A stretch of 64,000 bases of DNA from positions 434,001-498,000 of the forward strand of contig NZ_JACWMY010000003.1 of NCBI RefSeq assembly GCF_014773265.1. Reading direction: 5' to 3'. Below are positions 30,300-40,589 of this stretch, piece after piece. Both the position numbers and the translations under genes were made by a program. Each line of letters opens with the position of its first letter. Position 1 is the stretch's first letter. Source of the stretch: Mucilaginibacter pankratovii (lineage in GTDB: Bacteria > Bacteroidota > Bacteroidia > Sphingobacteriales > Sphingobacteriaceae). The notes under the pieces are model-generated. The model was not told the DNA's origin. It saw nothing but the letters and a program-made list of their open reading frames with translations, and did not search any database.

Positions 30300-30917
30300 T
30301 CACCCTACCTCCAGCTCATCCCCACTCACCCCATCCAACTCCTGCGGATTGTGGCTTACAGTCAATGCCGTAGCCTTCAATTCTTTAATCAGTGATTGCA
30401 GGTCTGATATCAGCTCACCCTTCATTTTCACATCCAGCGCAGAAAAAGGCTCATCCATCAGCAATAATTTTGGTTTAATGGCCAGGGCCCGTAAAATGGC
30501 CAGGCGCTGCTGCTGCCCGCCGCTAAGGTGTTCGGGTTTATGCGTGGTAAAGGTTTCCAGCTTGCCAATATTTAAAAGTCGGTTTATCCAGGCGGTATCT
30601 TTAGTGGCATATTCCAGGTGCTGCTGCACCGTCATATTGGGGAACAGCGCGTAATCCTGGAAAACGAAACCCGGCATCCGCTGTTGCGGCGACAGGCTGA
30701 TGTTTTGCGCGGAATCGAACCAGGTAATGTCATCAACAACTATGCGACCAGCATCGGGGGTTATCAGTCCGGCAATCATTTTAAGCAGCGTGGTTTTACC
30801 CACGCCCGATGGCCCGGTGATCCGCGCAATGCCGCCTGTTGCGAACTCCTTTTTTACCCGCAGCACCTGTACGCCCTTATAGGCCTTTAGCTTTTTTTCT
30901 ATATCGATGCTGATCAT
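30300..30917 (-). CDS. modC: Molybdate ABC transporter ATP-binding protein, short form
   Basis: 205 aa. Walker A GPSGVGKTT, Q-loop FQDYALFP, ABC signature LSGGQQQR, Walker B LLLMDEPFSALD and H-loop region TVSHNPQE are all present. It is about 150 residues shorter than enterobacterial ModC, ending right after the nucleotide-binding domain. It therefore lacks the C-terminal TOBE molybdate-sensing domain, so feedback inhibition through ModC is unlikely. It overlaps modB by 4 bases and completes a modA-modB-modC operon on the minus strand. Confidence 0.9.
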   Translation of the reverse strand: MISIDIEKKLKAYKGVQVLRVKKEFATGGIARITGPSGVGKTTLLKMIAGLITPDAGRIVVDDITWFDSAQNISLSPQQRMPGFVFQDYALFPNMTVQQHLEYATKDTAWINRLLNIGKLETFTTHKPEHLSGGQQQRLAILRALAIKPKLLLMDEPFSALDVKMKGELISDLQSLIKELKATALTVSHNPQELDGVSGDELEVG

Positions 30918-31585
30918 TCCAAAGGGCTTTTTACCTGGTATTTATTGTAGATGAATACGCCGATGACCAATATAAAAGTAATGGCGAAAAGGACGAGCGA
31001 ATAGTTATTGGCCGAGGTATAATCCATTTGTTCCACCGAATCGTAAACGGCTATAGAGGCAACCCGGGTTACGCCGGGTATATTCCCGCCGATCATCAGC
31101 ACCACGCCAAACTCGCCCAGCGTATGCGCAAAGGTGAGCACAATGGCCGTGAGCAGCGATGGTTTGATATTGGGCAGCAATACTTGCCTGAAGGTTTGCC
31201 ATTCGCTTTTCCCCAGCGTATAAGAGGCCTGTGAAAGCGAAGCCGGCAATTGCTGAAAGGCCGATTTTACGGGGCTGATCATAAAGGGCATACTGTAAAT
31301 TACCGATGCCAGTACCAGTCCCTCAAAACTGAAAACAAACTGCAGGTTAAACACATCGTGAAGCCATTTGCCAATGCCATGCCGCGGACTAAAAGCCAGA
31401 AGCAAATAAAAGCCCAGCACCGATGGCGGCAGCACCAGCGGCATGGTAATAATAGCCTCGATGATAATTTTTATAAACGACCGCTTTTTGGAGAGCCACC
31501 AGGCCAATGGCAAACCGAACGCCAGCAATACCAAAGTGGTAATGCCGGCCAGTTTTAAGGTAAGCCATATGGGGGTTAGGTCCAT
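30914..31585 (-). CDS. modB: Molybdate ABC transporter permease
   Basis: 223 aa with five to six transmembrane helices. It opens MDLTPIWLTLKLAGITTLVLLAFGLPLAWWLS and has the family segments ITMPLVLPPSVLGFYLLLAFSP and the coupling EAA-like loop SQASYTLGKSEWQTFRQVLLPNIKPSLLTAIVLTFAHTLGEFGVVLMIGGNIPG, a near-textbook ModB signature. It forms the homodimeric inner-membrane channel for molybdate or tungstate. It starts 6 bases after modA and overlaps modC. Confidence 0.95.
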   Translation of the reverse strand: MDLTPIWLTLKLAGITTLVLLAFGLPLAWWLSKKRSFIKIIIEAIITMPLVLPPSVLGFYLLLAFSPRHGIGKWLHDVFNLQFVFSFEGLVLASVIYSMPFMISPVKSAFQQLPASLSQASYTLGKSEWQTFRQVLLPNIKPSLLTAIVLTFAHTLGEFGVVLMIGGNIPGVTRVASIAVYDSVEQMDYTSANNYSLVLFAITFILVIGVFIYNKYQVKSPLE

Positions 31586-31591
31586 TGCGTT

Positions 31592-32353
31592 TTATTTTAC
31601 GTGGTAGCCGTAACGGGTGAAGATCTTTTTTGCGGCGGGGCTTAATATATAGCGGTAGAACTTTTCGGCGTCGGAGTTTGGTTTGGGCTGTTTTATCAGC
31701 ACCATGCCCTGCTCAATAGGGCTGTAAGTTTTTGGGTTGATGATCTTATAGTACAATTGCGTTTTGTTGGCTGCATCTTTCACCAATGATAACGTAGTAA
31801 AACCGGCCTGCACCACGCCTGTGGTAATGTAAGTGTTCACCTGGGTAATGCTTTCGCCCAAAACTATTTTATCTTGCACCTTGTCGTAGATCTTTTCGTG
31901 CTTTAAGGCTTCTTCGGCGGCTTTGCCGTAGGGGGCAATGGCCGGGTTGCCAATGGCTATTTTTTGGATGGATGCGCCGGGCAGCAGTTTGGCCCAGTTG
32001 GTAAAATCCAGTCGTTGGGTGCTGCAAATGATGAGTGTGCCCGATGCATACACCACAGGCTTTTTGGTAGCAAAACCGCTTTTAAAAAGTTCGTCAGGAA
32101 ATGCGGTATCGGCAGAAAGGAAAACATCAAAAGGCGCACCGTTCTTAATTTGCGTAGTGAGATTGCCTGAAGGCCCCGCGATGGCATCCACAATAATGCC
32201 CGTTTTCTGCATAAAATCTGCCTGCAGGGCTTTCATTACCGGCTGCAGGTTGGCCGCTATGGCCACCTTTAAATTTTGCGCCTTTAGGGAGATAGGGCTT
32301 AGCGCCATCAACCACAAAGCAACAAAAAATAGCTTCCTGCCAAATCTTATCAT
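31592..32353 (-). CDS. modA: Molybdate-binding periplasmic protein
   Basis: 253 aa from MIRFGRKLFFVALWLMALS at 32353, the better signal-peptide start; ATG 32371 adds six residues. The signal ends near LKAQ. The mature protein is a type II periplasmic binding protein: LKVAIAANLQPVMKALQADF, GPSGNLTTQIKNGAPFDVFLSADT (serine/alanine contacts to the oxyanion), YASGTLIICS, GNPAIAPYGKAAEEAL, and the tail YRYILSPAAKKIFTRYGY. It captures molybdate/tungstate and hands it to ModB. It leads the operon modABC and is divergent from the GH5 gene. Confidence 0.93.
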   Translation of the reverse strand: MIRFGRKLFFVALWLMALSPISLKAQNLKVAIAANLQPVMKALQADFMQKTGIIVDAIAGPSGNLTTQIKNGAPFDVFLSADTAFPDELFKSGFATKKPVVYASGTLIICSTQRLDFTNWAKLLPGASIQKIAIGNPAIAPYGKAAEEALKHEKIYDKVQDKIVLGESITQVNTYITTGVVQAGFTTLSLVKDAANKTQLYYKIINPKTYSPIEQGMVLIKQPKPNSDAEKFYRYILSPAAKKIFTRYGYHVK

Positions 32354-32457
32354 ATTAACACGATCGAACATTTTTCATCATGAGTGTAATTAAACCCGCC
32401 GCAAACAAATTACGGATATACATTAGCCAACGCAAATATAAACGGTTAAATATCCTG

Positions 32458-32598: not shown

Positions 32599-33831
32599 AT
32601 GAAAAAAGTAATTATCCTGTTTGCGGCGCTCGTTACCTGCGCCTTTACCCTGCGCGCGCAAGCACCCAAATTCATCTCCACAAACGGCAAAGAAGTTATC
32701 GGCACAGATGGCAAACCCTTCCTTATCAAGGGCACCAATTTAGGCAACTGGCTGGTACCCGAAGGCTATATGTTTAAGTTTAAAGCCGTTAACTCGCAAA
32801 GGCTCATTAATCAGGCTTTTACCGAGCTGATCGGTCCCGAAGAAACGCGGCTTTTCTGGAAGAAATTCCAGGATACGTATATCACACAGGCCGATATTAA
32901 ATTTATCAAGGCTTCGGGTGCAAACTCCATCCGTATCCCCTTCAACTATAAACTCTTCACCAGCGAAAGCTATATGGGTATGAACAACCCCAACCGCGGT
33001 TTCGAACTGCTGGATAGGGTGATAGGCTGGTGCAAGCAGGAGAAGCTTTACGTAATGCTGGATATGCACTGTGCCCCCGGCGGCCAAACCGGAGATAATA
33101 TCGATGATGGCGATGGTTACCCCTTCCTGTTCACTAGCGCGGCCAACCGCAAGCAAACCGCCGACATCTGGAAACGCATTGCCAATCACTATAAAAACGA
33201 AAGCATCATTTTAGGCTACGACCTGCTGAACGAGCCCATCGCCCATTATTTTAAGGTAGATGAGATAAACCCCCACCTGGAGCCAACCTACAAAGAAATT
33301 ACGGCGGCAGTACGCTCGGTTGATAAAAACCATATCGTATTCATCGGCGGTGCGCAGTGGGACAGCAATTTTAAGATCTTCGGTAGGCCCTTTGATAGCA
33401 AAGCCGTTTACACCTTCCATAAATACTGGACGGATGCTACAAAGGCCGTGGTACAGGAATATATCGATTTTCGCGATAAGTACAATGTGCCCATCTACGT
33501 AGGCGAAACCGGCGAGAATACCGATAAATGGGTGCACGATTTCCGCGTCGTATGTGAAGAAAACAACATTGGCTGGCATTACTGGCCCTACAAAAAACTG
33601 GATAGCGACAGAGGTTTCATGAGCTTCAATATCCCCGATGGTTACCAGGAAGTGATCGACTATACCGAAAAGCCGCGCGCCAGTTTCGAGGACATCCGCA
33701 AAGCCGCCCCTGCCGACAGGGCCAAAATAAAAGCGGCCCTTTACGCTTTTTTAGAGAATAGCAAGTTTGCCAATAGCATCCCGCAAAAAGGGTATATGGA
33801 AGCGCTGGGCCTTAAAGTGCCCATAAAATAA
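32599..33831 (+). CDS. GH5 family glycoside hydrolase (glucanase-type)
   Basis: 410 aa from MKKVIILFAALVTCAFTLRAQ at 32599; the upstream in-frame ATG adds 19 residues from low-complexity leader sequence. The GH5 (betaalpha)8 barrel has LIKGTNLGNWLVPEGYMF at its start, the acid/base in YDLLNEPIAHYF (Glu212) and the nucleophile in VYVGETGEN (Glu303). Other subsite segments are DMHCAPGGQTGDN and FHKYW. The exo-beta-1,3-glucanase/cellulase-like opening suggests a beta-glucan substrate; GH30 and GH16 genes follow within 8 kb. Exported to periplasm or surface. Confidence 0.92.
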   Translation: MKKVIILFAALVTCAFTLRAQAPKFISTNGKEVIGTDGKPFLIKGTNLGNWLVPEGYMFKFKAVNSQRLINQAFTELIGPEETRLFWKKFQDTYITQADIKFIKASGANSIRIPFNYKLFTSESYMGMNNPNRGFELLDRVIGWCKQEKLYVMLDMHCAPGGQTGDNIDDGDGYPFLFTSAANRKQTADIWKRIANHYKNESIILGYDLLNEPIAHYFKVDEINPHLEPTYKEITAAVRSVDKNHIVFIGGAQWDSNFKIFGRPFDSKAVYTFHKYWTDATKAVVQEYIDFRDKYNVPIYVGETGENTDKWVHDFRVVCEENNIGWHYWPYKKLDSDRGFMSFNIPDGYQEVIDYTEKPRASFEDIRKAAPADRAKIKAALYAFLENSKFANSIPQKGYMEALGLKVPIK

Positions 33832-34073: not shown

Positions 34074-35996
34074 ATGATAAATATACCGCTTATGTATAGA
34101 CGTTACTATCAGTTTGTATACCTTTTTGTTGTGCTGGCCGGTATGGCTCTGCCCGTTGCTGCGCAAACCCTGGTGCCCGTTGTAGATACGGCCAAGCAGC
34201 ACGTATTCCGTTTTGCCGAACTGGAATACCTGCGCGATACCACCAATGCCCTTAGCCTGGCCGACGTAAGCACGCGCTATAGTAGTAAATTTGTAAGTAA
34301 TACATTGCCCACCCCACAGATACAGGAGGCCGGCGCCACCTTTTGGTACCGCATCCGGCTGGATCAGCGCATAGCTACCGAAAATAGCTGGATCCTGGAG
34401 TTTTTTGATCAAACCATTGATAGTATAACCGTATACTCGCCCGCAAAAGGCGGTACTTATACCGCCACGCTGCTGGGCAGTAACCGGCCTTTTTCGCAGC
34501 GGATGTACGCGCATAAAAATTTTACGCTCAACATCAGCAATGATGTTAAGGCCGAGAATTACTATTACTTTAAACTCCGCTCGCACGAATCGGCCAACGT
34601 TATCATCGTACTGCGATCGGTAAACTGGTTCATCAGCTACGCGCTGGACGAATACTTTTACTTCGGCATATTTTATGGTATGATCCTGGTTTTCGGGTTG
34701 TACAACTTCATGATGTTTGTGGCCATGCGGCAGCGTCAGTACCTGTACTACATTGTTTACAACCTCAGCATAGGCCTTTACGAAATGTGTACCGATGGTA
34801 TTGCCTACCAGTACCTGTGGCAAACCGCCCCGCAGTGGAACCACTACGCATACGGTATCGCGCTGTTCCTGGCCAGCACCTTTGCTATGCTGTTTGCCCA
34901 GAGCCTGCTCAGTTTAAAGGAGAACGCGCCACGTTTTAACAAGGTGCTTAATGGCGTCATCATCGCCAGGGCTATTTTCTTCGCTATTGGTTTGCTGGTA
35001 GATAAAACCCTTTTCACCTATAAAATTATCGAGATCATCCCCCTGTCCGTAGCTTTTATATCGGGCTGTTACGTGCTGTACAAAGGGTATCGCCCGGCGC
35101 GCTTCTTTGTTATTGGTTACAGCTTTTTGTTTACCGGTTTTATCATCAAATCGCTTATAGCGCTCAATTTATGGTGGCTGCCCGTTACAGCGCTCAACTT
35201 TTACAGCCTCAGTTTTTGTTTTATTATGGAGATGCTGTTCATCACCTTCGCTATTGGCGATAGGGTGCGGATGCTGAAACGCGAGAAGGATACAGCCCAG
35301 CAGCGTATGATAAAACAGCTGCAGCAAAACGAAGAATTGAAAGACCTGCTGAACAAGCGCCTGGAAGTGCAGGTGGCCGAGCGTACCAGCGAACTATTAG
35401 AAAAATCGTCCCTTATCGAACTACAGAACGAAGAACTTACAGCCGTAAACCAATTGCTGCAACAGCAAGCAGAAGAAATTTCGCGTATGAACGTGCTGCT
35501 GGAAAAGGACAACCTTACCCTGCATAACGATATTGAAAAAGTTACGCACGACAGGGTGATGAGTGCCGAAGTAGATTTTGAAGAGTTTAGCCGCATCTAT
35601 CCCGACCGCGAAACCTGCTTCAAATTCCTGGCCGACTTGAAATGGGAACACGGCTACGCCTGTAAAAAATGCAGTAACACCCATTATGGTAACGGGCATT
35701 TGCCTTACAGCCGCCGCTGTTCTAAATGCGGGTACGAGGAATCGGTTATTGCCTACACCATTCTGCAGAACACCCGCATCCCCATCAACAAGGCATTTTA
35801 CATGATATTTTTGATGTACAGCACCAAAGGAAAGATCTCGTCGCACAAACTCTCCGAGATTCTCTCTATCCGCCAAAGCACCTGCTGGGCCTACAGCAGC
35901 CGCATAAAAAAAGCCATGGAGAGCATGAAAAAAGAGATCAAAAACGCCGGCAGCAAAGGCTGGAGTAAGCTGGTGATAGATACTTCGGAGGAGTAA
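34074..35996 (+). CDS. 7TM-DISM receptor fused to an IS1595-type zinc ribbon domain
   Basis: 640 aa from ATG 34074 (ATG 34092 also possible; earlier in-frame codons lie inside a repeat). Order: signal peptide ending VAAQ; extracellular DISMED2-type jelly roll (about 45-190, FWYRIRLDQ...WILEFFDQTIDSITVY); seven membrane helices (about 195-390, FGIFYGMILVFGLYNFMMF); a coiled coil (about 395-495); then about 140 residues matching the N-terminus of IS1595 transposases. These have FKFLADLKWEHGYACKKC and RRCSKCGYEES (Cys530/533/549/552), ILQNTRIPINKAFYMIFLM and KISSHKLSEILSIRQSTCWA. The DDE catalytic part is absent. I infer a membrane receptor with a co-opted nucleic-acid-binding output. Confidence 0.85.
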   Translation: MINIPLMYRRYYQFVYLFVVLAGMALPVAAQTLVPVVDTAKQHVFRFAELEYLRDTTNALSLADVSTRYSSKFVSNTLPTPQIQEAGATFWYRIRLDQRIATENSWILEFFDQTIDSITVYSPAKGGTYTATLLGSNRPFSQRMYAHKNFTLNISNDVKAENYYYFKLRSHESANVIIVLRSVNWFISYALDEYFYFGIFYGMILVFGLYNFMMFVAMRQRQYLYYIVYNLSIGLYEMCTDGIAYQYLWQTAPQWNHYAYGIALFLASTFAMLFAQSLLSLKENAPRFNKVLNGVIIARAIFFAIGLLVDKTLFTYKIIEIIPLSVAFISGCYVLYKGYRPARFFVIGYSFLFTGFIIKSLIALNLWWLPVTALNFYSLSFCFIMEMLFITFAIGDRVRMLKREKDTAQQRMIKQLQQNEELKDLLNKRLEVQVAERTSELLEKSSLIELQNEELTAVNQLLQQQAEEISRMNVLLEKDNLTLHNDIEKVTHDRVMSAEVDFEEFSRIYPDRETCFKFLADLKWEHGYACKKCSNTHYGNGHLPYSRRCSKCGYEESVIAYTILQNTRIPINKAFYMIFLMYSTKGKISSHKLSEILSIRQSTCWAYSSRIKKAMESMKKEIKNAGSKGWSKLVIDTSEE

Positions 35997-36711: not shown

Positions 36712-36808
36712 GCGTCATTGCGAGGTACGAAGCAATCTCCCGATAGGAAGGTCCGCTATGCAGATCGCTTATCCTGCGTAGAGATTGCTTCGTACCTCGC
36801 AATGACGC
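36712..36808. repeat. 28-bp perfect inverted repeat element
   Basis: Arms at 36712-36739 and 36781-36808 are exact reverse complements over 28 bases (left arm starts GCGTCATTGCGAGGTACG). The 41-base centre holds a weaker inner pair GATAGGAA/TTATCCT. The arm sequence is one I associate with widely dispersed bacterial intergenic repeats. It lies at the start of the 551-base gap before the GH30 gene. Confidence 0.85.
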
Positions 36809-36883
36809 TTTGTTGAGTAGTGTCTTTTATACTCAATCTCCAATCCGCTTACTCCCCATAGCTATATTGCTTAAAAGGTAAGC

Positions 36884-36986
36884 TGTGAGGGAAGCGTATC
36901 GCAACTATTTTTTTATTTTTTTAAAAGCCGCTTTAAACCCTTTAAAGCGGCTTTTTGCTGTTTTACCCCTGTGAGGCAAGCGTATC
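36884..36986. repeat. Direct repeats flanking a perfect 15-bp hairpin
   Basis: TGTGAGGGAAGCGTATC (36884-36900) recurs as TGTGAGGCAAGCGTATC (36970-36986), 17 bases with one mismatch, 86 bases apart. Between them AAAAGCCGCTTTAAA-CCC-TTTAAAGCGGCTTTT (36923-36955) is a perfect 15-bp stem with T runs on both sides, a bidirectional terminator. The remaining gap (36987-37242) holds a promoter but no gene. Confidence 0.7.
36923..36955 (+). terminator. Bidirectional terminator, 15-bp stem
   Basis: Perfect stem with CCC loop, T-rich flanks on both sides. It isolates the GH30 promoter from upstream transcription. Confidence 0.85.
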
Positions 36987-37037
36987 AAAATTCATATAAA
37001 TGGCTAATTATCAGTTATTTATATTATAAAGCGCTTG

Positions 37038-37066
37038 TTTGTAACGTGAAAATTACTTTAAATTTG
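37038..37066 (+). promoter_or_regulatory. Promoter of the GH30-GH16 cluster
   Basis: TTTG (37038-37041), 17 bases, then TAAATTTG (37059-37066), the Bacteroidota -33/-7 pair. It predicts a leader of about 170 bases before ATG 37243, long enough for regulation, though no riboswitch is recognised in it. Confidence 0.55.
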
Positions 37067-37242: not shown

Positions 37243-39111
37243 ATGAAGATCACCTACAAAATTAAGTTACTGGCAACGGTGTTTATTACACTGGCGCTGC
37301 TGGTAAATGCGTGTAAAAAAGATGCCCGCACGCAAAGCATCGATGGCGCAAAAACAACCACTACCGAACCGCGAAACGCCACCAGCGCGGTTACCACCTG
37401 GCTTACTACCTCCAATCAAAGCAGCCTTTTGGCGCAGGGCAGCGTAAACTTCGCGGCAGATGCCGGCACCAACCCAAATACCATTACGGTTGATGAAGGT
37501 ACCACCTACCAGGGCATCGATGGCTTTGGCTATACCCTTACCGGCGGCAGCGCAAGCCTGCTAAACGGCTTGGGAGGCAACCAGGCCAGCGTGCTCAACG
37601 AGTTGTTTGGCACAGGTAACGGGCAAATAGGCGTTAGTTACCTGCGTGTAAGCATTGGCGCATCAGATCTTAGCTCGTCAGATTTTACCTATAACCAAAC
37701 CGCGGGCGATGTAAACATGAACAACTTTAGCCTGGCACAGGAGAACACCGATTTCCTGCCTATCCTGAAAAAGATCCTGGTCATTAACCCTAACATCAAA
37801 ATTATAGCCACCCCCTGGACGGCCCCAACCTGGATGAAGGTGAACACCACCGGCAACAACGGCTATACCGGTGGCAGCTTAAACACCGCTTATTACGCTG
37901 CCTATGCTAAGTACTTTGTAAAATATATACAGGCTATGCAAGCGCAGGGCATCCGCATAGATGCCGTTACACCGCAAAACGAGCCACTTAATCCCTACAA
38001 TAATCCCAGCATGGTAATGCAGGCCAATGAGCAGGTAACGTTTATCAACAACCACCTGGGTCCGCAATTTGCCGCAGCCGGCATCACCACCAAAATTATC
38101 GCATACGATCATAATGCCGATGTGCCAAGTTACGCCACCACGGTAGTAGGCCAGGCAGGCGGATATGTAGATGGTTCTGCGTTTCACCTTTACGCAGGCG
38201 ATATCAGCGCGTTAACAACTGTACACAACGCATACCCTAACAAAAACGTTTACTTTACCGAGCAATGGGTGGGCGCACCAAGCAACTTTGGCGGCGATTT
38301 GGGCTGGCACATCAACACCCTCATCATAGGCGCTACCCGTAACTGGAGCCGCAACGTACTGGAGTGGAACCTCGCTGCCGATCCTAACAACAACCCGCAT
38401 ACCGCAGGCGGCTGCAGCACCTGCCTTGGCGCTATTACGGTAAGCGGTACATCCATTAGCCGTAACGTAGGTTATTACATTATTGCCCATGCATCAAAAG
38501 CGGTAAGGCCGGGCGCGGTACGTATTGCCTCTAACATAGCGGGCAGCATCCAAAACGTGGCGTTCCGTAACAGCGACGGTACCAAAGTGCTCATCGCATC
38601 AAACAGCGGCGGCAGCAGCACCAGCTTCAAAGTAAAATGGGGTTCAGAATCCTTTACTTACACCCTGGCTGCAGGCGCGGTAGTAACCTTTAAATGGAGC
38701 GGCACACCGGGCGGAGGCACAGGCAGCGGCGCGCCTATCGGGCAAACCATCACCCTGAAAGGCTTTAATAACCAATATGTAAACAGCCAGAACGGCACAC
38801 AAGCTATGACTTGTAACAGCGCAGTAGCATCTACCTGGGAGCAATTTACCGTGGTGGATGCGGGCGCAGGTAAAATAGCCCTTCGTGCCATGAACAAATA
38901 CGTATCATCAGAAAACGGCACGCAAGCCATCACCTGTAACCGCGCCACCATTGGCGATTGGGAGAAATTTGATTGGGTACCAACAACGGATGGTAAAATA
39001 ACCATCCGCGGTAACAACGGCAAGTTCATAAGCAGCGAGAACGGCACCCAGGCCATGACCTGTACCCGCGCAACCGCATCGGGATGGGAAGCTTTTGGGG
39101 TGAACCAGTAA
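37243..39111 (+). CDS. GH30 family glucanase lipoprotein with C-terminal beta-trefoil module
   Basis: 622 aa. A lipoprotein signal ([12 protein letters not shown], lipid Cys near 24) precedes a GH30 TIM barrel with side beta-domain. Start [19 protein letters not shown]; acid/base Glu247 in [13 protein letters not shown]; nucleophile Glu340 in YFTEQWVG. Family members act as beta-1,6-glucanases or glucosylceramidases. The last ~125 residues are a threefold repeat: [17 protein letters not shown] and similar units, a fascin/ricin-like beta-trefoil expected to bind carbohydrate. The same module ends the GH16 protein. Surface lipoprotein attacking beta-1,6-linked glucans is my inference. Confidence 0.92.
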
Positions 39112-39365: not shown

Positions 39366-40589
39366 ATGAAAAAGCAATTATTAAACTTTCTGAAAGGAGC
39401 CGGACTGGTACTGGCTATCAGCGTTGCGATGATCTCCTGTAAAAAGGATGTAAAAGCGCCGGCCGATGAAAAAGCTGCAATCGCTACCGCCACTACTACT
39501 CCCCGCGCCCTCACCCTGGTTTGGCAGGATGAGTTTAACGGCACCGGTGTAGACGGCAGCAAATGGGGTATAGATGTAGGCAACCCCAACGTAAACAATG
39601 AGAAGGAGTATTACTCAACCGGGAACGTGGCGGTAACAGGGGGCAACCTGGTTATCACGGCCAAAAACCAAAGCATGGGCGGGCAACCTTATACTTCGGG
39701 TAAGCTCACCACCTCGGGTAAGTTCTCGGTAAAATATGGCCGCATCGAGGCGAGTATCAAACTCCCCGCTTTCCAGGGTAGCTGGCCGGCATTCTGGATG
39801 CTGGGTACCAATATCGGCTCGGTAGGCTGGCCACAATGCGGCGAGATAGATATTATGGAGCAAACCAACACCAGCAATGTTACGCTGGGTACCATGCACT
39901 GGAACAATAACGGCCACGTTTACTACGGCGGCAACACACCGGTGAATGTTACCGGTTATCATTTATATGCGGTAGAATGGGATGCAAACAGCATTAAATG
40001 GTATGTGGATGGTACGCTGTTCCACACCGGGAATATTCAAAACAACATCAACAGTACCGAAGAGTTTCAGCTGCCTTTCTTCCTGATCCTGAACCTTGCG
40101 GTAGGAGGCGACCTGCCCGGCAACACCATTAACAACGGCGCGTTGCCCGCTAATATGTATGTAGATTACGTAAGGGTCTATAGCATCAGCGGCGGAACAG
40201 GCTCTACCGCGCCTATCGGGCAAACAGTGACCTTAAAAGGCTTCAATAACAAATATGTGAATGGCCAGAACGGCACCCAGGCCATGACCTGCACCAGCAC
40301 GGTAGCATCTACCTGGGAGCAATTCACCGTGGTTGACGCAGGCGGCGGTAAGGTAGCTTTACGCAGCATGAACAAATATGTATCCTCTGAGAACGGCACG
40401 CAGGCCATCACCTGTAACCGCGCTACCATTGGCGATTGGGAGAAATTTGATTGGGTGCCAACAGCAGACGGCAAGGTTACCTTCAGAGGCAACAACGGCA
40501 AATTCATTTCCAGCGAGAATGGCACACAAGCCATGACCTGCACCCGGGCAACTGCTGCGGGTTGGGAAGCTTTTGGGGTGAACCAGTAA
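39366..40589 (+). CDS. GH16 family beta-glucanase lipoprotein with C-terminal beta-trefoil module
   Basis: 407 aa from [20 protein letters not shown] at 39366; the longer frame upstream runs through a repeat and is discarded. Lipobox AMISC near 25. GH16 jelly roll from [17 protein letters not shown]; catalytic GEIDIME (nucleophile Glu160, Asp162, acid/base Glu165); WPAFWMLG and [15 protein letters not shown] complete the family pattern of laminarinases (endo-beta-1,3-glucanases). Residues about 282-407 are the threefold NGTQA-[MI]-TC trefoil, almost identical to that of the GH30 protein. It likely works with GH30 and GH5 on laminarin- or fungal-wall-type glucans. Confidence 0.93.

Follow-up and report, generated by a model that had tools for sequence, protein, structure and literature searches.

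A seven-helix membrane receptor with a transposase-derived DNA-binding end as a candidate regulator of fungal cell-wall glucan use in Mucilaginibacter and its relatives

Three regulator classes have been named for the glycan loci of Bacteroides (PMC6874557). SusR is described as a membrane protein that has a periplasmic sensor and a cytoplasmic DNA-binding domain, and its predicted operators are direct repeats whose centres are separated by 67 or 77 bp and that were read as being bound by dimers on one face of the DNA (PMC3878776). In Bacteroides thetaiotaomicron, the regulator BT3309 (SusR3) sits before susC-susD-GH30 (PMC5481569). A ChiS-family DNA-binding domain has been reported together with 7TMR-DISM (PMC8092284), and the RNA-guided transcription factors called TldR have evolved from a transposon protein (PMC13418256). 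We compare with these systems a receptor protein, FUS, that is encoded in the window, the whole stretch of 64,000 nucleotides of Mucilaginibacter pankratovii DNA analysed here.

The FUS gene is an open reading frame on the forward strand (34074..35996) whose product begins with a signal-like helix; the second ATG, at 34092, is the likelier start because close homologues start there. In the window protein, Pfam assigns residues 49-180 (34218..34613, +) to the 7TMR-DISMED2 domain (E-value of 2.1e-26, 92.9 bits against a cut-off of 22) and residues 193-397 (34650..35264, +) to the seven-helix 7TMR-DISM membrane domain (1e-43, 150.1 bits against a cut-off of 29). In the structure model the DISMED2 domain, which is presumed to be periplasmic and to bind a ligand, is beta-rich, the membrane domain is helical, and the last membrane helix runs on into a presumed coiled coil as one long helix (residues 373-469; 35190..35480, +). 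Residues 468-500 have pLDDT values below 50, and the C-terminal module of about 150 residues comprises a zinc ribbon and, behind it, a helical part in which a helix-turn-helix is predicted. Pfam gave no match at E ≤ 1 to a kinase, receiver or AraC domain, which sets FUS outside the hybrid two-component regulators. The initial annotation had given the same reading frame, topology and DISMED2-type plus seven-helix layout, and both the search of the N-terminus against the 7TMR-DISM families, with the two matches above cut-off, and the structure prediction, which also models the C-terminal helix-turn-helix, agree with it; its domain reading stands as described, with the start codon moved to 34092 and the helix-turn-helix added behind the ribbon.

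The zinc ribbon is of the IS1595 type and was delimited at residues 512-554 (35607..35735, +) from Pfam, alignments and comparison with an IS1595 transposase (L249); its four cysteines, Cys530, Cys533, Cys549 and Cys552, are invariant in the alignments of the FUS family. The helix-turn-helix comprises helices 590-597 and 601-617 (35841..35924, +), modelled with a mean pLDDT of 83, and lies within residues 566-621, which match positions 1-57 of the 215 of the NCBIfam transpos_IS1595 profile (1.4e-7, 31.6 bits against a cut-off of 75). The HMM search of the C-terminus gave a divided answer: the window protein alone remains below the cut-offs (PF12760, E-value of 0.0043, 17.4 bits against 25.4), but when 21 C-terminal modules of the family were compared with PF12760, 20 matched at E ≤ 0.01, the best at 6.3e-11. 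The L249 transposase, in which both IS1595 domains exceed the Pfam cut-offs, aligns to the FUS module with 41% identity over 117 amino acids (E-value of 5e-35), and this upholds the earlier proposal that the ribbon and the helical part resemble IS1595 transposase N-termini. The DDE catalytic core was said to be missing; indeed, PF12762 has no match in FUS at E ≤ 1 in Pfam, against 1.6e-23 in L249, and FUS ends about 20 residues beyond the transposase-derived module. Foldseek found no structural match for the module in the PDB at E ≤ 0.001, VIA-align gave weak matches to helix-turn-helix proteins (best Z of 3.7, all below 4), and sequence searches of the PDB with the module returned nothing useful. 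In one of the genomes (G376), 22 sequences match an IS1595 transposase, and 20 of these are long and divergent; the three that were read (L246, L247 and L248) have an altered VEVDET catalytic motif, and L247 is without a Pfam DDE match. These relatives may be host-adapted proteins that have multiplied and lost catalytic activity.

Full-length FUS occurs in 24 of 60 genomes (the window's genome is one of the 24), in at least 16 of 395 genomes sampled from the class (five families) and in at least 11 of 395 sampled from the phylum, all in the same class; the class and phylum counts are lower bounds since scoring was confined to a few candidates in each genome. Scanning named genomes produced at least 465 matches, some of which may be plain transposases, and the best 80, full length or nearly so, come from Mucilaginibacter, Pedobacter, Arcticibacter, Pararcticibacter, Desertivirga, Chitinophaga, Dyadobacter or unplaced MAGs; among the matches listed, the closest named homologues of the window protein are from Mucilaginibacter. 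As these best 80 of at least 465 loci, all in other genomes, carry the fusion, it is neither an assembly error nor an IS insertion peculiar to this strain. The fusion is colinear in five families of the class. In the best 80 of the at least 465 matches, the mean share of the commonest residue is 0.59 in the DISMED2 domain, 0.74 in the 7TM domain, 0.72 in the coil, 0.83 in the zinc ribbon and 0.86 in the helical part. Members from two families (f12 and f49) share 44-53% identity with the window protein in the module and 25-29% in the receptor, whereas those from a third (f15) share 38-41% and 41-43%, respectively, so that there the module is not better kept. Many soil Bacteroidota carry such a receptor with a transposase-type DNA-reading end.

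In the window, FUS is preceded on the same strand by a GH5 gene (32599..33831, +; Pfam Cellulase, 3.9e-31) and followed by its presumed target, a GH30 endo-beta-1,6-glucanase-like gene (37243..39111, +; Pfam GH30, 6.4e-43; NCBIfam BT3312 model, 2.1e-126, below the equivalog cut-off), and by a GH16 gene presumed to be in the same operon as GH30 (39366..40589, +; Pfam GH16, 3.1e-20), Pfam thereby recovering all three flanking genes that had been named initially. The survey of fused homologues and their neighbours showed that such loci are rich in GH30: within about 9 kb, 72 of 81 loci (the best 80 of at least 465 plus the window) have GH30, 41 SusD, 39 SusC, 35 GH16, 23 GH5 and 20 GH3, as counted with catalytic-domain queries and with several loci on short contigs. 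Open reading frames were called by a longest-ORF rule, not by a gene finder, and those below 70 amino acids were ignored; at one locus (L153) an antisense ORF took the place of the FUS call, which is therefore missing from the neighbour table. In three loci (L094, L100 and L108) none of GH30, GH16, GH18, GH5, GH3 and SusC was found, the contig of L108 ending inside the gene. The Pedobacter-type gene order is receptor-susC-susD-(GH3)-GH30, and among the 37 loci L124-L160 susC immediately follows FUS in 33. Twenty further FUS regions, 14 from other genera or families and six from distant members within the genus, have susC in 17 cases and GH16 in the three of f12; a GH81-like gene adjoins FUS in the one f12 region scanned, and PF10091 glycosidases account for three of the four f15 proteins that were scanned. 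In 20 control regions around 7TMR-DISM proteins that lack the module (two short; receptor re-called in 19), GH30 was found in none and a SusC/SusD pair in one, a second, weak SusC label (L216) failing the coverage test. Genes for an ABC transporter (ATPase, permease and binding protein), presumably of the molybdate type, lie at 30303-32371, divergent from the GH5 gene, and its permease and binding-protein clusters recur in 24 of the 81 loci (the best 80 of at least 465 plus the window).

Alignment of 33 FUS-susC gaps revealed a direct repeat, GGTAnnnaAGCGTATCA, that stands out of largely diverged sequence. The two copies are spaced by 90-92 nt in 32 of the 33 gaps, a count made with a pattern containing the CGTAT core, on which the gap alignment did not depend. 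Where GH30 follows FUS, the pair is mostly TGYGAnnnAAGCGTATCA with the copies 86-89 nt apart in 24 of 27 loci, the window included and 17 of L081-L123 without GH30 after FUS in the locus left out; the exceptions are L088, with a spacing of 77, and L090 and L123, in which one copy was seen. In the window the copies are CTGTGAGGGAAGCGTATC (36883..36900, +) and, 86 nt further on, CTGTGAGGCAAGCGTATC (36969..36986, +); they are 94% identical, the pair is matched by a profile model of the element (R1, described below) at 1.7e-9, and a pattern derived from both copies, searched with up to two mismatches, matches no other place in the window and nothing in 100 shuffles. A perfect inverted repeat with 15-nt arms lies between them (36923..36955) and is replaced in most Pedobacter-type operators by a CTGATnATCAG-like element; either is perhaps the site of a second protein. 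Downstream, ATCAGTTATTTATA (37010..37023, +), an element well conserved in related loci, sits just upstream of a presumed promoter of the Bacteroidetes type at about 37035-37066. In the window, neither the DNA upstream of FUS nor that upstream of the GH5 gene yielded an operator-like site. Immediately ahead of the operator (36712-36808) lies a palindromic repeat of some 97 nt; it has 81 matches in the genome, which, being counted on both strands, correspond to about 40 places.

The spacing of the repeats falls into clade-specific classes of 76-77, 86-89 and 90-92 nt. The gap between clades exceeds half a helical turn, so a rigid model with both copies on the same face does not fit all of them, and since the spacing is nearly constant within a clade and variable between clades, a fixed face is no more likely than looping or a flexible coiled coil. 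The motif [GC]CGTATY is absent from the gap between FUS and the next gene in f15 (five members), f12 (three) and f49 (three), although f15 and f12 nevertheless have the module and the glycan context; inspection of f49 by eye showed, in two members, no more than a single similar sequence ahead of GH3. The link to the operator therefore holds for part of the family only. A consensus starting with GGT gave two one-mismatch matches in the window, which is the chance level, and failed there because the window site begins with TGTGA. An origin of the operator from transposon ends was also considered by looking for GCGTATY near IS1595 genes and is unsupported: GGCGTATTG lies about 53 nt ahead of the L249 start, but L249 is present as a single copy and its transposon ends thus cannot be fixed, and no GCGTATY-like sequence lies near the gene in the shared left ends of two copies in one genome (G382) and three in another (G017).

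The bare pattern GCGTATYN{78,85}GCGTATY proved too weak, matching 40 of 60 genomes (89 matches against 50 for the reversed control), and two profile models were used in its place. R1 is a sequence-only model from 32 Pedobacter-type elements, one of them from Mucilaginibacter (L142). It was applied to 60 genomes, among which 37 belong to the genus of the window; its E-values are rough, and stricter filters were used in the search. At E ≤ 1e-4, R1 matched 23 of the 24 genomes with FUS and one of the 36 without (Fisher, 2.4e-14; 3.9e-9 within the genus; kinship not corrected), and weaker matches, with E between 0.001 and 0.1, turn up in both groups. The positive set consists of all 23 genus members with full-length FUS plus a genome (G009) that is 58% complete, in which FUS was not found and operator pairs precede a SusC-like gene (L201) and a GH30 gene (L202); we predict that its missing part holds FUS. 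The FUS-positive genome without an R1 match at this level (G050) is the only f15 genome among the 60. None of the R1 training contigs was recognised, by size, among the 24 FUS contigs of the test genomes. R2, built from 24 GH30-type elements and sharing genomes with the test set, gave the same picture on the 60 genomes. When eight GH30 regions were compared, the element was found (E ≤ 1) in the one with FUS and not in the seven without, which have a SusR-like protein in four cases, a FecR protein in one and no identified regulator of this kind in two.

Sites with E-values up to about 1.1e-5 in R1 or R2 were followed to the nearest same-strand ORF downstream (n = 43; seven further sites at that level are the window's own, five GH30 sites of the R2 training set and L182, before SusC), a 78-amino-acid ORF overlapping the operator-like site being skipped in one case (L195). 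All 43 precede transport or glycan genes, by 43 to 412 nt: GH30 in 18, SusC in 16, GH18 chitinase in five, GH3 in two, and an esterase, followed by GH43, and an alginate-lyase-family gene, followed by GH2, in one each. The labels rest on phmmer comparison to one reference member each, with Pfam run on eight targets, and the SusC label of L201 on a BLAST match to a truncated ORF only. Five remote targets were labelled GH16 from their best BLAST match and are really GH18, a C-terminal domain being common to both (Pfam on one). In FUS-bearing genomes, 18 of the 43 sites are unlinked, either more than 100 kb from FUS or on another contig, where they could still be near; they precede GH30 (10), GH18 (5), GH3, SusC and the esterase (1 each). 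The second site in the window's genome precedes another GH30 gene, then GH43.

In layout, though in layout only, FUS resembles the SusR-type regulators (BT3309/SusR3 and BT3705/SusR), as it also stands before susC-susD with a widely spaced direct repeat. Among 395 genomes, GH30 passes the BT3312 cut-off in four, and there the gene before susC encodes four mutually homologous proteins (31-49% identity), one of them from a genome (G076) in the same family as the window. From their position and layout these proteins are presumed to be SusR-type. The two that were scanned both have DUF6377, which Pfam does not find in FUS, and by eye the proteins of this slot have one membrane helix against the seven of FUS. 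None of the four matched FUS profiles at E ≤ 10, and it follows from this lack of homology that the same slot is held by unrelated proteins. FUS shares with the 7TMR-DISM receptors its DISMED2 and 7TM domains, both above the Pfam cut-offs; nine non-fusion receptors of this type that were scanned end in HATPase_c (seven) or SpoIIE (one), or are a partial ORF without a recognised output (one). With the IS1595 (ISXO2-like) transposases FUS has the zinc ribbon and helix-turn-helix region in common, but it lacks the DDE domain, is fused to a receptor and occurs in conserved gene contexts. TldR derives from TnpB, is RNA-guided, is not a membrane receptor and is unrelated to FUS. An IS1595-type output on a 7TMR-DISM receptor, tied to an operator and a fungal-wall regulon, was not found in the literature searched, most subscription papers lying outside it. 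7TMR-DISM receptors with a DNA-binding output have been reported for the ChiS-family domain, and SusR is a functional parallel.

Judged from sequence, FUS is probably a membrane-embedded one-component transcription regulator for the use of fungal cell-wall glucan. In the periplasm, the DISMED2 domain would detect oligosaccharides of beta-glucan; the signal would be relayed by the seven helices and the coiled coil, which would also keep two or more subunits together; and the zinc ribbon and helix-turn-helix, derived from an IS1595 transposase, would bind both copies of the repeat, turning on the promoter just downstream. FUS would fill the place that SusR-type regulators hold in Bacteroides, with unrelated parts. 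That a transposase part serves as the output of a receptor, that it acts at specific DNA sites and that the receptor senses glucan breakdown products had all been suggested from the window; each of the three gains from the conserved operator-like repeat, which tracks FUS from genome to genome, lies ahead of glucan and chitin genes and was not found in the seven GH30 regions without FUS, the binding, the ligand and the direction of regulation all being deduced. The operator, the susC-susD context and the age of the fusion are added here.

The evidence that FUS binds the repeat is one of association, and the pair might be bound by another, unlinked regulator of the same genomes, with FUS playing a different part in these loci, for instance anchoring the DNA at the membrane or acting on that regulator. 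In transposases the IS1595-type module presumably recognises transposon ends, and not promoters, and the palindromic elements that separate the two copies could be the target of a second protein. However, other regulator-like clusters each occur in at most 14 of the 81 loci (the best 80 of at least 465 plus the window), a count from one-linkage clusters that a varied regulator could escape and in which FUS is present in all 81 by construction, and the element was not found where GH30 occurs without FUS. Moreover, in five genomes with two FUS copies (G006, G013, G017, G021 and G031, some in the R2 training set) the site next to the copy that precedes susC scores better with R1 and the site of the other copy with R2, although the site beside the second copy in G036 departs from this split. 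On balance, we regard a separate regulator as unlikely.

Slightly less likely again is that FUS binds the repeats as a repressor or a constitutive architectural protein and is not an inducible activator. The sequence is compatible with either sign of regulation; the repeats, however, lie upstream of the presumed promoter and not on it, the position expected of an activator. By analogy, SusR is an activator of sus operons (PMC3878776), and pustulan induces the locus that carries the SusR-type gene BT3309 (PMC5481569), an induction that may or may not depend on BT3309 itself. The transposase origin of the module, together with the many IS1595 relatives in G376, three of them with changed catalytic motifs, could also suggest that the C-terminus is no more than a functionless IS1595 relic in decay. 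This we consider highly improbable, because across five families no part of FUS is better conserved than the transposase-derived end, whose cysteines are invariant.

For FUS as a regulator that reads the paired repeat, a bolder picture may be drawn, which we put forward tentatively and think rather doubtful in full: the seven-helix receptor may have kept the transposase habit of holding two DNA sites, so that it would bridge the paired repeats, loop the DNA at the membrane and capture unlinked chromosomal promoters for a fungal-wall programme of glucanases and chitinases, as a further class of PUL regulator beside the SusR-type, hybrid two-component and sigma/anti-sigma ones. If the proposed role of FUS is true, a DNA-reading module of a transposon has been turned into the output of a membrane sensor, and it would add to the three classes named for Bacteroides glycan loci. 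Receptor, operator and regulon are named together, and the proposal is directly testable in culturable Mucilaginibacter and Pedobacter; it would bear on how soil bacteria detect and eat fungi.
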